A stretch of DNA of 64,000 nucleotides, taken from NCBI RefSeq assembly GCF_003576345.1, contig NZ_QWGB01000005.1, forward strand, positions 1,178,001 to 1,242,000, given 5' to 3'. Made by a program: the position numbers and the translations under genes. How positions within the stretch are numbered: the first letter of the stretch is position 1; every line of letters starts with the position of its first letter. This DNA is from Henriciella barbarensis (lineage in GTDB: Bacteria; Pseudomonadota; Alphaproteobacteria; Caulobacterales; Hyphomonadaceae). Shown piece after piece: positions 45,878 to 52,171 of this stretch. Below the pieces are notes generated by a model. That model saw only the letters and a list, made by a program, of their open reading frames with translations, made no database searches and was not told the DNA's origin.

Positions 45878-47165
45878 CCTTGGCAATCATTGACGGCAGG
45901 TAGACGCCAAGTGCGCCTGCCCGCCAGACATACATGGTCAGGAAGGCGATCCAGACGCCAGTATTGGCGAAGGCATCCTTCAGAAGCATGTCCGTGCCGA
46001 CATAGAGAATAGCGGCCACCACACCTGCGTTTCGCAACGCTTTGCCCTGCGTCGCGCCAAGGAAAAAGCCATCGAGCTGCCAGCAGGCAAGGCCGATCAG
46101 CGGCACGGCGGCGCAATAGGGCAGGTAGGCCAGCGCCACGGCGCGCGCGTCTGCATCCGCCACGAAATTCTCGATGATCCAGCCGCCACCAATGAAATAG
46201 GCAAGCGCAATGAAGATTGCGCAGGCGAGCGCGATCTCGCTCGTTAGGCGCATCGCACGCATCAGCCGCGCGCGGCTTCTGGCGCCATAGGCTTCGCCAA
46301 TCTCTTTCTCGGCGACGAAAGCGAAGCCATCGAGCACAAAAGCCGATACGGACACGAACTGGAGCAGGACTTCATTGCCAGCAAGCGTAGCGGTGCCGAG
46401 GCTCGCGCCTGAGTTCACGAACCAGGCAAAGCAGAAGAGTAGTGCCAGCGTCCGGATGAGAATGTCGCGGTTCGCGTTGATTAGAGCTGCCAGCCGCTCC
46501 CGGTCAAACAGCTCGCCGGAACGCGAGAAGCCCTTGCGCACGAGGACCAGCCCGAAAGCGAGCGCGACCCATTCGGCGATGGCTGTGCCTGCACCGATCC
46601 CGGCGGGTCCCCAGCCGAGCCCTGCTACGAACCAGATATCGAGCGCGGCATTTGTGCCATTCATCACGATCTGGAAGGCTAGCAACTGCCCGGTCTTTCC
46701 TGTGCCCAGCAGCCAGCCTGTAATCGCATAGCCCATAAGGACGGCAGGGGCGCCCCATACGCGCGCATCGAAATAATCCCGGGCCAGCGACTTCACCTCA
46801 GGGCTCGCCTCGAAGGGTTGAAAGACGGCGAGTTTCAGGAGTGGCGACAGGATGAGGATTGTGAGACCAAGCGCACCGCCGAGCAGGAGCGCACGCTGCA
46901 GCACCGTCTGTGCTTCCAGCCGGTCACCGCCGCCCGCTGCCTGCGCGGTCAGGCCTGTCGTCGACATGCGCAGGAAACCGAACGCCCAGTAGAGGAAGTT
47001 CATCACCACAGCGGCAACGCCAACGGCGCCGAGGTCGAACTTTGTGCCGTAGAGCCCCATCACAGCCGTGTCGACGATGCCGGTCGATGCGGTCGCCGCC
47101 TGTGCCAGCATCACCGGCACGGCAAGCGCAACGACCTTTGAGCGGGTGAGGAGGGCATCTGACAT
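45837..47165 (-). CDS. MATE-family efflux transporter (DinF-like)
   Basis: 442 residues from the ATG at 47165; a reading from 47201 adds residues antisense to the next gene. Twelve hydrophobic helices in two related halves are visible. Landmarks are LAVPVMLAQAATASTGIVDTAVMG near the start (about 13-36), GATQGKALRNAGVVAA late. MATE proteins export drugs or organic cations with Na+ or H+ antiport. The 3' end overlaps pyrD. Confidence 0.9.
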   Translation of the reverse strand: MSDALLTRSKVVALAVPVMLAQAATASTGIVDTAVMGLYGTKFDLGAVGVAAVVMNFLYWAFGFLRMSTTGLTAQAAGGGDRLEAQTVLQRALLLGGALGLTILILSPLLKLAVFQPFEASPEVKSLARDYFDARVWGAPAVLMGYAITGWLLGTGKTGQLLAFQIVMNGTNAALDIWFVAGLGWGPAGIGAGTAIAEWVALAFGLVLVRKGFSRSGELFDRERLAALINANRDILIRTLALLFCFAWFVNSGASLGTATLAGNEVLLQFVSVSAFVLDGFAFVAEKEIGEAYGARSRARLMRAMRLTSEIALACAIFIALAYFIGGGWIIENFVADADARAVALAYLPYCAAVPLIGLACWQLDGFFLGATQGKALRNAGVVAAILYVGTDMLLKDAFANTGVWIAFLTMYVWRAGALGVYLPSMIAKVSESQPRQPAQQT

Positions 47166-47229
47166 GGCAAGCGGCTTATGGCGCTGGCCTCTGCTTGACA
47201 ATCAGCCGCCTGCCGACATCTCACCCATT

Positions 47230-48159
47230 ATGGCGCTGCCGATCGTTCACCATCCTGATTATGACGCCGAGAGCGTACCGGACAGCCACCGCTTTCCGAT
47301 GCGCAAATACTCGCTTCTTGCAGACCTTCTGCGTGAACGAGGCGAGACGTTTGCCGTACCCGCTCATGCGCCAGAAAGCTGGCTGCACCTCGCGCATGAC
47401 CCGGCCTATGTGACTGCGGTGCTGACGTCTTCGGTAGACGCGAAAGCCGCCCGAAAGATTGGCTTTGAGATGACGCCAGCCATTGCGGCGAGAACGCGCG
47501 CTTCTGTTGGCGGCACCTGCCTCGCCGCGCGCCTTGCTGTCGAGCATGGGGCGGCGGTCAACCTCGCAGGCGGCAGCCACCATGCCAGCTATGAGGGCGG
47601 GGCAGGCTTCTGTGTCTTCAATGATGTGGCCGTTGCGGCGCGTGTCATGCTTGAAGACGGGCTATGCCGGAAGGTCGCGGTGATTGATTGCGATGTGCAT
47701 CACGGTGATGGGACCGCCAGCATCTTTGCGGTGGACAATCATGTCTTCACGGCGTCCTTGCATTGCGAAGACAACTGGCCGCGTACCAAGCCCCCTTCAG
47801 ACCTGGATGTCGGACTTCCTAAGGGCGCTACCGACAGTGATTACCTGCAGGCGCTGGACAGTTTCCTCAAAGGCGCTTTCGGTCGATCAGCGCCAGATCT
47901 GGTCTTTTACAATGCGGGCGTCGATCCGCATCAGAAGGACCGTCTGGGGCTTCTTTCGCTTAGCGATGAAGGCCTGCGCGAGAGAGACCGCAGAGTTGCA
48001 GAAGCCTGCGTTGGACAAGGCGTCCCCGTCGTCGGAGTGCTCGGTGGTGGCTACGAAAAGGACGCGAGCGCCGTCGCGCGAAGACACAGTTTCATGGTGG
48101 ATGCATTGGCAGCCGCAACTGCGCCTCAGGGACGAACTGCCTTTTCTTCGCCTCATTAA
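47230..48159 (+). CDS. histone-deacetylase-superfamily hydrolase
   Basis: 309 residues from the ATG at 47230. Zn-site motifs of the arginase/HDAC fold: GGSHHASYEGGAGFCVFND, VIDCDVHHGDGTASIF and NAGVDPHQKDRLGLLSLSDE. This matches class II/AcuC-like bacterial HDACs, which remove acetyl or acyl groups from amines such as acetylpolyamines or protein lysines. The substrate is not known. Head-to-head with the MATE gene. Confidence 0.88.
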   Translation: MALPIVHHPDYDAESVPDSHRFPMRKYSLLADLLRERGETFAVPAHAPESWLHLAHDPAYVTAVLTSSVDAKAARKIGFEMTPAIAARTRASVGGTCLAARLAVEHGAAVNLAGGSHHASYEGGAGFCVFNDVAVAARVMLEDGLCRKVAVIDCDVHHGDGTASIFAVDNHVFTASLHCEDNWPRTKPPSDLDVGLPKGATDSDYLQALDSFLKGAFGRSAPDLVFYNAGVDPHQKDRLGLLSLSDEGLRERDRRVAEACVGQGVPVVGVLGGGYEKDASAVARRHSFMVDALAAATAPQGRTAFSSPH

Positions 48160-48162
48160 TCC

Positions 48163-48176
48163 TTAACGACTGTTAA
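48163..48176. promoter_or_regulatory. paired TTAA half-sites (possible CtrA-type box)
   Basis: TTAA at 48163-48166 and TTAAC at 48173-48177 are separated by 6 bp, with a third TTAA at 48156-48159 inside the preceding stop. The CtrA consensus is TTAA-N7-TTAA, so the spacing is one base short. It lies about 45 bp before the membrane coiled-coil gene. Weak candidate only. Confidence 0.25.
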
Positions 48177-48218
48177 CAGGCAATACTGCCAAGCAATCAG
48201 ACTGGAGAGCCTGCAAGG

Positions 48219-49607
48219 ATGTTTGGGCTGGCATGGACTGACTGGCAACTCTGGCTGGTGGTGGCGGGTGTAATCCTGCTTCTTTATGTTGGGCGTCCCT
48301 ATCTGCACGGACTGTTTCGCGGGATATTCTTCGGTCTCGCCTATGTGTTGCGCGACGTGGCGCGACGGCTTGAGAATGCCGGTAACAACATCTACCGGCA
48401 GTATATTGAGCTTGTCGCCTCGCACACAGCTGAGACGCTGGAGCAGCGGCTCGTCAGCCAGGAAATGAAGCTGGAAAAGCGCGCCCCGGAGATTGATCGG
48501 CGGATCAGCGGTATTGTCGACAAGCTGGACACAAACCAGTCCGACCTTTCGGAAACGCTCGAAGCCTTTCGTGCAGTGGACCTTGACGAGCGCACGCTTG
48601 ACGCGGTGCGCAACCGTATCGAGGCAAACGGCACCGGGCAGAGCCGCGCCAAGCTTGCCAGCGCAGCTTCCGATGTCCGCCGCGCCGTAAAGGAGGAGCT
48701 GTCGCCACTCCGCCCGCAGATCAATGCATTGCGCTCAGAACTGAAGCCCATGGCGGAGAATATTACCCGTCTGCGTTCGATCTCGAACGAACTGAGCCGC
48801 TCTTCGAAACAGATCAACAAAGATCTCGCGACTTTCGAAGATTGCATCCACCCTGATTATGAGCGGCGCCGGGAGGCGGCCCAGCGCCAATCCATTCTGA
48901 TCCCGTGGTTGCTTTCATTACTCGTCATGACAGTGGCACTGACCGGCGTTTTCCTGAACTTCTTCTTGATCCAGCGTCCGATGGCCGAGATAGTCGGCGA
49001 TGACCTCCAGGTGATGGGCGTCGGCCTTCCAACAGCGGCGGCCCTTGTCGTCATCTTTCTCGAAGCGGTCGCTGGTATCGTTCTCATGGATGCCGCGGGC
49101 ATCACCAAGATCACGCTTATCTCGAACCTGCCGCGCATCCATAAGCGCGTGCTGCTCTATGCAGCCTTCGCTTTCCTTGCCGCATTCTCCTTCTTTGAGG
49201 CCATTCTCGCCATTCAGCGGGAAGTCCTGATCGGTATTGACCAGGAAACGACGCGCCGCGCGCTGGGAGAGTTGCCCGCCGAGGCAGGTGGAGAAACGGG
49301 CGGCATTTCGCTTACCATGATTGGACAGATGGTACTTGCCATCCTGATCCCCTGGCTTCTGGCTGTCGCAGCAATCCCGCTCGAGACCGTTGTGCAAAAT
49401 TTCATTCTCATCGTGCGCCTGGTCATGCACCAGATCACGATCTTCCTTGCATTCATTTTTGCGATCGTGGCGACCGTGTTGAAGGCGCTCGGCCTGTTCG
49501 TGCTACGAGTCTATGACTTGCTGATCTTCCTGCCGCTTACGATAGAAAGAATGTTCAGGCGGATCCGTGGCCCGTCCCGCAAGAAGCAAGCCTCTGGAGC
49601 AACATGA
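48219..49607 (+). CDS. polytopic membrane protein with long periplasmic or cytoplasmic coiled coil, unknown family
   Basis: 462 residues. One helix at 9-23, then about 190 charged helical residues with heptad-like repeats (e.g. RRISGIVDKLDTNQSDLSET, RSELKPMAENITRLRS). At least four more helices follow from about 230 (LIPWLLSLLVMTVALTGVF, ALVVIFLEAVAGIVLM, LLYAAFAFLAAFSFFEAILA, MVLAILIPWLLAVAAIPL and a last pair near 405-445). The C-terminus is strongly basic. AAGG precedes the ATG. The stop overlaps the next start (ATGA), so it is coupled to the VWA lipoprotein. I recognise no family; a scaffold or mechanosensitive role is only a guess. Confidence 0.75.
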   Translation: MFGLAWTDWQLWLVVAGVILLLYVGRPYLHGLFRGIFFGLAYVLRDVARRLENAGNNIYRQYIELVASHTAETLEQRLVSQEMKLEKRAPEIDRRISGIVDKLDTNQSDLSETLEAFRAVDLDERTLDAVRNRIEANGTGQSRAKLASAASDVRRAVKEELSPLRPQINALRSELKPMAENITRLRSISNELSRSSKQINKDLATFEDCIHPDYERRREAAQRQSILIPWLLSLLVMTVALTGVFLNFFLIQRPMAEIVGDDLQVMGVGLPTAAALVVIFLEAVAGIVLMDAAGITKITLISNLPRIHKRVLLYAAFAFLAAFSFFEAILAIQREVLIGIDQETTRRALGELPAEAGGETGGISLTMIGQMVLAILIPWLLAVAAIPLETVVQNFILIVRLVMHQITIFLAFIFAIVATVLKALGLFVLRVYDLLIFLPLTIERMFRRIRGPSRKKQASGAT

Positions 49608-50260
49608 TTACCACGATACTGAAGACGCTGAGCGCTGGATTGATCCTTGCTGGCGTGGCGGCCTGCGGCGCCGTTACGTCTAATTCAAAAGCCGTGTTCA
49701 TGTTGGTGGACGCCTCCGGCACCTATGTGCGCGAAGTGCCGGACGCTGTCGTTACGGCCAAGCTATTGACCTCTAAACTCAACTCCAACGACATGTTCGC
49801 CTTTGGCGAGATCGGCTCGTGCAGCTTCTCTGATAACAGCCTCGTCGTTCGCCGCACCTTGCCGGGCACGCCCAGCGAGGCGGCCTACGCCAAGCAAGCC
49901 GTCTTTGAAAACCTGGAAGCCTATGCAGAGACCGTACAGGCGACGGGCTGGACCGACATCAGAGGCGGCCTGCGCTATGCGGCGGCTGAACTGGAGCAAT
50001 CCGATCAGGCAAGCCGCTACATCGTTGTTGTCTCTGACCTCGTCGAGGATGTTTCCCCCGATTGCGATACCAGTGGTCTGGAGCTCGACCTCGAAGGCAT
50101 TACAGTGATCGTCACGAACGTCACCCGCTCCGACCGCGACGCATCTGATCCGAATGCCTATTTCGAGCGCCTCGAAGCCTGGGAAGCGCTGGTTAAAAAT
50201 GCTGGCGGTACATGGGTGCACGCCAATTCGCGCGACCGGTTGCTGGAATACATGTTCTAG
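49604..50260 (+). CDS. VWA-domain lipoprotein
   Basis: 218 residues. Lipoprotein signal ends at LAGVAAC (Cys21). A von Willebrand A fold follows with its metal-ion site: DASGT (D-x-S-x-T) near 38-42, Thr in GWTDIRGGL, and Asp in VVVSDLVED. Four further cysteines include EIGSCSFSD and SPDCDTSG. VWA domains bind partner proteins through the metal. It is translationally coupled to the membrane coiled-coil protein, which is the likely partner. No other gene joins this pair: recQ follows after 69 bp with its own ribosome site. Confidence 0.78.
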   Translation: MITTILKTLSAGLILAGVAACGAVTSNSKAVFMLVDASGTYVREVPDAVVTAKLLTSKLNSNDMFAFGEIGSCSFSDNSLVVRRTLPGTPSEAAYAKQAVFENLEAYAETVQATGWTDIRGGLRYAAAELEQSDQASRYIVVVSDLVEDVSPDCDTSGLELDLEGITVIVTNVTRSDRDASDPNAYFERLEAWEALVKNAGGTWVHANSRDRLLEYMF

Positions 50261-50329
50261 GCGCGCAAAGCCCCGCTGGCTGACGCTTGCATATTGATGA
50301 TTGGCCCCGACTCCCGTGAAGGATAGGCC

Positions 50330-52171
50330 ATGGCCGTCGCAAACTCCGAAGTCGCATCAGAGACGCCGCTTTCCCTGTTGAAGCGGGTCTATGGCTATGA
50401 CGCTTTCCGGGGGCTGCAGGCTGATGTCATAGCTGACGTGATGGCAGGCCGCGATACGCTCGCCGTGCTACCCACCGGCGGCGGCAAGTCCCTCTGCTAC
50501 CAGATACCCGCCATCCTGCGTGATGGGGTCGGCCTCGTCGTCTCCCCGCTGATCGCGTTGATGGCAGACCAGGTCGATGCGCTGAAGGCGCTGGGCGTGC
50601 GGGCTGAACGCCTGGATTCGTCCATGGCGCTAGAGGATAAACAGGCAGCCCTCGAAGCGGCACGCCGCGGCGAGATGGATATGCTCTACGTCTCGCCGGA
50701 GGCGCTTGGTACCGGACTCGCCGGGGTCCTGGCGCGGCTTGGCGTTTCCGTAATCGCTATTGATGAAGCTCACTGCGTCAGCCAGTGGGGCCATGACTTC
50801 CGCCCGGACTACCGCGCACTTAGCCGCCTGAAGCAGCTCTTTCCCGGCGTCCCACGTATCGCTGTCACAGCGACGGCTGATGAGCGCACGCGCGATGACA
50901 TCTTGCATGAGCTCGATCTCTCATCGTCGCAGGTCCATGTCGCAAGCTTCGACCGGCCAAATCTGACTCTTGGCGCAGAGCCGAAAGCCGGAAAACGCGC
51001 CGACCGCGTGGCGTCCCTCGTGAAAGCACATTCTGGCGAAAGCGGCATCGTCTATGCGGCAACGCGTGATGCAACCGAAACGTTGGCTGAAAGCTTGGAG
51101 CGGGCTGGCATCGCTGCGCTGGCCTATCATGCGGGGCTGGACCCGGAAGTTCGGGCTGAGCGCCAGCGCCGTTTCCTGCTGGAAGATGGCATTATGATGT
51201 GCGCCACCGTTGCCTTCGGCATGGGCGTCGACAAGCCTGATGTTCGCTTCGTTATCCATGCGGACCCGCCAAAAACTCTGGAAGCCTACTGGCAGGAGGT
51301 TGGCCGCGCGGGCCGCGATGGAAAGCCTGCCGAAGCCTTTGCCCTGTTTGGCCCAGCCGATATGCGCCGGTCGATCAGCTGGACGGTCGAAAGCGACGCG
51401 GCCGAAGAGGTTAAACGTGTCCAGCTGACCAAGACGCGTCAGCTGTTTGCATTCCTTAATGGAACGGAGTGCCGGCGCGGGGCCGTCAGGCGATACTTTG
51501 GCGAAGAAAATGTCGCGCCCTGCGGCGAATGCGATAACTGCCAACGCGAGCCGGGCGACGGGTTCAATGCGACACGCTTTGCCCAGATGGCTGTTTCCGC
51601 TGTGATCCGCTGCGGCCAGCGCATCGGACGCGGCCGCCTCATCATCCACTTGACCGGCTCGGCCCGCGACGGCTTCGATGAAGACCTTGCGCAATTGTCC
51701 ACGTATGGAATTGGAACTGACTTGTCGAAACAGGGCTGGAATGCCGTTTTCGATGAGTTACTTTTCTCCGGCCTCCTGGCTGAAACCGGTGATGCAATGC
51801 GCCCTGTCCTTGCCGTGCCGGACCAGGAAGCCGTGCGCGCCCTGTTCAAGGGCGACCGGGAAGTGTGGCTGCGTACCGATCCCAGCCAGCGAAAGACAGC
51901 ACGGAAACGATCAGGTCTCGCCGCAGCGGTCGTGCACGACCTCTCCGCACGTGATCAGTCTCTCTTCGAAGCGTTGCGTGATTGGCGGCTCGAAACGGCA
52001 AAAGCCAAGGGTGTGCCGCCTTATGTCATCTTCCATGACAGGACGCTGGCGGCGATCGCGGCGGAACGGCCTGCGTCGGGCGATGAACTTCGCAACATCA
52101 GCGGCGTTGGAGAAAAGAAGGCGGGGCGCTACGCCGACGATATCGCGAGGATCGTCGCTGAGGCGGCCTAG
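50330..52171 (+). CDS. recQ: ATP-dependent DNA helicase RecQ
   Basis: 613 residues. Walker A LPTGGGKSLCYQIPA near 47-61, DEAH box IDEAHCVSQWGHDFRPDY (the RecQ aromatic-rich loop), FGMGVDKPDVRFVIH and QEVGRAGRDG. The zinc-binding domain has EC and CGECDNC cysteines, then an RQC winged helix and a C-terminal HRDC (DRTLAAIAAERPASGDELRN and ISGVGEKKAGRY). A 3'-5' helicase for recombination and fork repair. Full length; AAGGA precedes the ATG. Confidence 0.96.
   Translation: MAVANSEVASETPLSLLKRVYGYDAFRGLQADVIADVMAGRDTLAVLPTGGGKSLCYQIPAILRDGVGLVVSPLIALMADQVDALKALGVRAERLDSSMALEDKQAALEAARRGEMDMLYVSPEALGTGLAGVLARLGVSVIAIDEAHCVSQWGHDFRPDYRALSRLKQLFPGVPRIAVTATADERTRDDILHELDLSSSQVHVASFDRPNLTLGAEPKAGKRADRVASLVKAHSGESGIVYAATRDATETLAESLERAGIAALAYHAGLDPEVRAERQRRFLLEDGIMMCATVAFGMGVDKPDVRFVIHADPPKTLEAYWQEVGRAGRDGKPAEAFALFGPADMRRSISWTVESDAAEEVKRVQLTKTRQLFAFLNGTECRRGAVRRYFGEENVAPCGECDNCQREPGDGFNATRFAQMAVSAVIRCGQRIGRGRLIIHLTGSARDGFDEDLAQLSTYGIGTDLSKQGWNAVFDELLFSGLLAETGDAMRPVLAVPDQEAVRALFKGDREVWLRTDPSQRKTARKRSGLAAAVVHDLSARDQSLFEALRDWRLETAKAKGVPPYVIFHDRTLAAIAAERPASGDELRNISGVGEKKAGRYADDIARIVAEAA

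Follow-up and report, generated by a model that had tools for sequence, protein, structure and literature searches.

Two overlapping genes of Henriciella barbarensis, here called A and B, encode a membrane protein and a lipoprotein with a VWA metal site, and the locus raises the question of whether the two products work together and, if so, what an exported metal-binding domain could do for its membrane-embedded neighbour. We addressed this by comparing the pair, which lies in a 64,000-nucleotide stretch of DNA (henceforth referred to as the window), with its relatives across the proteobacteria.

Organization and distribution of the gene pair

The first-pass annotation had described two genes with a 4-bp overlap, and their coordinates, frames and overlap were exact as given (Table 1). 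The same 4-nt overlap was found in 64 of the 86 pairs measured, the others ranging from a 23-nt overlap to a 22-nt gap. Comparison with four relatives gave dN/dS values of 0.05–0.14 for A and 0.04–0.17 for B, indicative of strong purifying selection on both genes, and these low values, together with the recurrence of the pair across many genera, exclude chance open reading frames. B is 95% identical to its counterpart in H. marina and 92% identical to that in H. algicola.

Table 1. Coordinates, within the window, of the gene pair and the features that flank it
Feature	Coordinates	Strand	Description
ORF A	48219..49607	+	462 aa, ATG start; membrane protein
ORF B	49604..50260	+	218 aa, ATG start; VWA-fold lipoprotein
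ATGA overlap	49604..49607	+	B start codon on A stop codon, 4 nt
Gap between HDAC-like gene and A	48160..48218	+	left edge of inserted unit
Gap between B and recQ	50261..50329	+	right edge of inserted unit
HDAC-like deacetylase gene	47068-48159		flanks pair upstream; sequence reading
RecQ-like helicase gene	50330-52171		flanks pair downstream; sequence reading

In twelve members of the genus that lack the pair, the HDAC-like gene is directly followed by recQ, indicating that the pair fills this gap as a compact unit, which was either gained once in this Henriciella clade or lost cleanly in others. The neighbours of the pair vary: as read from sequence they are HDAC/recQ in Henriciella, the proA/nadD region in another genus, and ffh/rimM, pyrG/kdsA/eno and others elsewhere, and across about 50 loci no third gene recurs next to it. 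Searches of plasmid, phage and viral collections with the queries used returned no relatives, so the pair shows no sign of being a plasmid or phage cargo gene. The earlier statement that a MoxR-type ATPase, the usual partner of VWA proteins, is missing from the vicinity also holds, since the AAA_3 genes that exist in the genome are found only on contig C10 and the window is on contig C11.

Conservation of the pair had been named beforehand as the check on its coupling, and across the genomes examined an intact B always adjoins A, which bears out the proposed coupled two-gene unit. In the host family, B is present in 20 of 105 genomes and directly follows A in all 20, and two extra genomes contain only A, situated at contig ends. 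A class-wide sample of 385 genomes yielded one further genome with either gene, and this genome has both; in its family, five genomes have full B genes, all beside A, and one has a B fragment. The wider search used a profile that included pairs from this second family. Related pairs are present in a second class, suggested to be the Zetaproteobacteria, in which 16 of 78 genomes carry B. In a third class, probably the Gammaproteobacteria, A was found in 54 of the 369 genomes sampled and a profile-detectable B was adjacent at 48 of the 56 A loci examined. The 85 A-B pairs that were aligned represent the Alphaproteobacteria and two or more other classes of proteobacteria (the taxa being partly inferred), and the tree of A largely matches that of B, the main groups being the same in both. 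At four loci (L061 in genome G077, L141 in G497, L143 in G491 and L150 in G867) A is frame-split or A or B is present as fragments, which suggests either recent decay of the unit in single genomes or assembly errors.

Features of the two proteins

B has an N-terminal signal with a VAAC lipobox, the Cys21 of which is invariant in 86 of 86 B proteins; the relatives have a hydrophobic N terminus followed mostly by [LIV]-x-[AGS]-C. By its N-terminal signal, lipobox and invariant cysteine, B is a predicted bacterial lipoprotein. The metal site of its VWA domain had been called intact, and indeed the MIDAS is complete (D36-A-S38-G-T40, T117 and D145), with all residues present and strongly conserved over the 85 pairs: the five MIDAS positions read DSTTD in 74 and DSSTD in 7 (81 of 85 together), whereas three of the other pairs have an acidic variant (DSDSD or DSESD) and in one the site is destroyed. 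Three loci (L214, L215 and L221) have the MIDAS variants DxSGD/E or DxSSD, with Ser in place of Thr117, and Leu at the position of R253 of A; other pairs, too, often have Leu there. R253 had appeared invariant in the first 38 relatives, but overall it is kept in 55 of 85.

The predicted model of B (pLDDT 85) matches VWA and integrin I-domains, with VIA Z scores of 15–16 at about 2.5 Å over about 160 residues, and Foldseek with the same model returned the VWA fold at E about 1e-6. The B of the window itself scores 17.3 bits against PF13519 (VWA_2), below the gathering cut-off of 27, which is a curation threshold and not a biological feature, and 11 of 13 diverse B relatives match this model, the best with an E value of 3e-6. 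B is thus a member of the VWA superfamily (Pfam VWA_2 PF13519 / VWA PF00092), a membership that, given its own sub-threshold score, derives from fold, motif and relatives. C73 and C154 of B are both present in 23 proteins and both absent in 63, neither ever occurring alone. This pattern is consistent with an extracytoplasmic disulfide, and a C73-C154 disulfide in B is probable. Their presence or absence follows lineages and therefore reflects few events.

A had been described as a protein with one N-terminal helix, a coiled coil of roughly 190 residues and at least four more helices, and most of this description stands. The N-terminal hydrophobic helix covers about residues 8–25, and the charged helical stretch that comes after it is followed by a membrane domain with 4–6 further predicted transmembrane (TM) segments, thus at least four. 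The coiled coil is correct insofar as about 200 charged helical residues are present, but the model breaks the stretch into several helices (residues 26–119, 124–136, 143–161 and 165–210) and so does not portray one continuous coil; the AlphaFold model of A is only moderate in quality (pLDDT 71.5, pTM 0.43). Among relatives, the charged helical region ranges from 112 to 213 residues. In one family (f67; L146–L149) it is about 75 residues shorter and the membrane core is unchanged, indicating that the conserved part of A does not depend critically on the length of the coil.

The idea that the unit spans the envelope by means of this coil is not supported by the charge distribution. Averaged over the first 38 A proteins, K/R residues make up 1% of the N terminus and 27% of the C terminus, and the loops between the transmembrane segments contain 9% K/R and 14% D/E (TM2-3), 13% K/R and 6% D/E (TM3-4) and 8% K/R and 17% D/E (TM4-5). 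Under the positive-inside rule, this pattern would place two short acidic loops (TM2-3 and TM4-5) in the periplasm, and both the C terminus and the coil on the cytoplasmic side; the coil is thus probably cytoplasmic.

The membrane domain of A contains a set of near-invariant positions, kept over the 85 pairs as follows: N247 in 84, F248 in 83, P254 in 83, E257 in 82, E282 in 84, E327 in 84, R334 in 84, Q370 in 83, P378 in 85, E389 in 84 and D433 in 84. No match in Pfam, NCBIfam, PHROG, PADLOC, PDB sequences or PDB folds covers this domain. The Pfam and NCBIfam matches of A (Baculo_PEP_C, SMC and Prominin) are coiled-coil look-alikes that all fall below cut-off, solved structures gave only coiled-coil or chance matches by sequence, and the fold search with A returned generic helical matches and nothing with E below 0.2. 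A match of A in genome G649 is a chance match to an ion-channel-like protein. Among fourteen diverse A proteins there was no match to a functional family, whether of transporters, channels, MotA/ExbB or any other kind. By these searches, A defines a family for which the libraries used contain no model and B matches generic VWA models only; in line with the first-pass annotation, neither protein belongs to a characterised family with another partner.

Metal site of B and membrane core of A

The state of the metal site in B and that of the membrane core in A go together. All 84 pairs in which the MIDAS is usable keep E282, as against only one of nine other A proteins, these being eight A proteins without a profile-detectable B and that of L236, the sole pair with a destroyed MIDAS (DEVVD). 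In L236 the whole polar core of the membrane domain (N247, E282, E327, R334 and Q370) is lost. The eight A proteins without a profile-detectable B retain E282 in one case, E327 and Q370 in two and N247 and E257 in three. R26, G286, E389 and D433, in contrast, are mostly conserved in the outlying A proteins (8, 7, 6 and 6 of these eight, respectively). Loss of B or of its metal site is thus accompanied by loss of this core.

Two of the eight (L219 and L237) have, after A and overlapping it by 4 nt, a gene of similar length to B with an N-terminal signal-like stretch; these genes gave no significant profile match to B and look, from their sequences, like decayed VWA-like B genes without a MIDAS, and the A proteins of both loci have also lost E282. 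Some genomes have two copies of the pair from different subfamilies (G1187 with L214 and L237, G720 with L137 and L140, and also G1200 and G1009), and of the two copies in G1187 one retains a usable MIDAS, which the other seems to lack through loss. A further A protein (L142, in G591) has no B and is nested among paired relatives, and of 11 core positions E282 alone is changed. A gene for a membrane-anchored protein resembling glycerophosphodiester phosphodiesterases lies about 87 nt downstream of this A, possibly as a replacement partner or as a chance neighbour.

In the tree, a single long-branch group (support 0.95) contains seven of these nine A proteins; L142 represents an independent case and L234 stands apart. 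This clustering corresponds to about three independent events, so the Fisher p-values for core loss against MIDAS state (down to 7e-9), which are descriptive only, overstate the correlation. Overall, the link between the metal site and the buried glutamate suggests that the metal action of B is needed for the action of the membrane core of A, and A and B probably work as one envelope device.

E257, conserved and situated in a predicted periplasmic loop of A, is the natural candidate for a direct ligand of the MIDAS metal. However, L216 and L218 have Ala in its place although their MIDAS is intact, and the three MIDAS-dead pairs all retain it, so that neither E257 as the sole contact nor a general bond between E257 and the metal is upheld.

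Possible workings of the pair

We tentatively favour, at a strength just short of probable, that A and B form a dedicated inner-membrane/periplasm complex in which the metal site of B controls the membrane domain of A. B would be exported and lipid-anchored, its VWA domain would bind a divalent metal and, through the metal site, B would engage A or a third ligand and thereby control the membrane domain of A. The buried residues E282, E327, R334 and Q370, with E257 at the periplasmic mouth, would do the actual job of A, which would most likely be ion or proton passage or a conformational signal, coupled to the cytoplasmic helices of variable length. The data show that the two genes are linked, that B has the VWA fold and an intact metal site, and that the near-invariant polar core of A is lost together with B or its metal site; physical contact between the two proteins, their topology and the output of the unit are what we infer here. 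A bolder and unlikely form of this proposal is that the pair represents a new class of bacterial envelope device, present in several proteobacterial classes, in which the VWA lipoprotein gates a path for ions, protons or divalent metals through a glutamate relay (E282 and E327, with E257 at the mouth), as a counterpart of alpha2delta-CaV in design and not in descent.

In its design the pair resembles alpha2delta and its voltage-gated calcium channel (CaV). Alpha2delta is a lipid-anchored VWA protein whose MIDAS metal holds an acidic residue of CaV that lies in an extracellular loop (loop I) (PMC6231325), and B shares with it the extracytoplasmic VWA domain with a lipid anchor (predicted for B), the intact DxSxS-T-D MIDAS and the dedication to one polytopic membrane protein. 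However, no sequence relation is apparent beyond the VWA domain, B has no Cache domains and no fold or motif of voltage-gated channels is recognised in A. The MoxR AAA+/VWA pairs (for example NorQ-NorD and RavA-ViaA; PMC13036017, PMC9489729) also couple a MIDAS-containing VWA protein genetically to a dedicated partner, but no AAA+ ATPase stands beside A and B, B is a predicted exported lipoprotein and A is an integral membrane protein. The FtsZl1/vWA operons, for which a role in membrane remodelling has been predicted, likewise encode VWA proteins with an intact MIDAS, whose predicted place of action is the membrane, in company with membrane proteins of uncharacterised function (Makarova and Koonin 2010, PMC2875224). 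These operons encode an FtsZ-like GTPase, frequently accompanied by another GTPase, by a kinase or by an OmpA-like protein, and as judged by neighbour recurrence over about 50 loci no gene of this type was seen to recur beside A and B.

Several other roles have to be weighed against a metal-controlled complex. It is somewhat unlikely that the pair is a sensor or transducer, in which B binds a periplasmic or extracellular ligand or senses metal, the coil of A signals to an unlinked partner and, with no ion flux, the buried acids merely shape the helix bundle. Such a role would suit a cytoplasmic helical domain of variable length joined to a periplasmic metal-binding domain, with no catalytic domain in either protein, but conservation is strongest in the buried charged residues of the membrane domain and not in the coil, the A proteins of one family manage without about 75 coil residues and no output protein is encoded nearby. 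The best-understood bacterial VWA proteins act in cofactor insertion (PMC13036017, PMC9976466), and the pair could by analogy with NorD/NorQ or other VWA chaperones be an assembly factor or chaperone that matures, or inserts metal into, an envelope enzyme encoded elsewhere. As AAA+ candidates are confined to another contig and none of about 50 loci examined shows a conserved client gene next to A and B, we regard this as quite unlikely.

The first-pass annotation had suggested adhesion, in which case B would sit at the outer membrane or cell surface and use its MIDAS to attach to a partner cell or to matrix, while A would export or anchor it at the inner membrane. This is very unlikely: the VWA fold does resemble adhesive I-domains, and the position next to the lipidated Cys, which is Gly or Ser in 23 of 38 B proteins and Asp in 8 of 38, would be compatible with outer-membrane sorting in most of them if the E. 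coli rule applied, but B is a single small VWA domain that lacks a stalk, repeats or surface-export signals, and adhesion has no need of the long conserved membrane core of A. ZorAB combines a membrane protein that has a cytoplasmic helical extension with a partner that reaches into the periplasm. A and B share this overall outline, and their patchy distribution, their insertion as a unit between the HDAC-like gene and recQ and a weak ZorA match would agree with a Zorya-type anti-phage or anti-competitor system composed of a membrane motor, a cytoplasmic coiled tail and a periplasmic partner. The PADLOC ZorA match, however, spans the coil only (residues 48–200, E 6e-4), a MotA/ExbB domain is lacking in A (no match at E<=0.1 in 14 A proteins), B has no peptidoglycan-binding OmpA domain, no defence gene recurs beside the pair and sequence turnover is low, which together make this role highly improbable.

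A literature search of partial coverage found no paper that describes the A-B pair. In one large class of proteobacteria about one in seven of the genomes sampled carries the unit, as do several alphaproteobacterial lineages, and no function has been found for it, its membrane protein having no family model in the libraries used. The loss of the buried glutamate where the metal site is dead or missing offers a testable handle, in that a MIDAS D36A substitution in B and an E282Q substitution in A are predicted to have the same effect. If the pair does prove to be a metal-controlled channel or transducer, it would offer a simple model, in bacteria, for the control of membrane proteins by VWA subunits.
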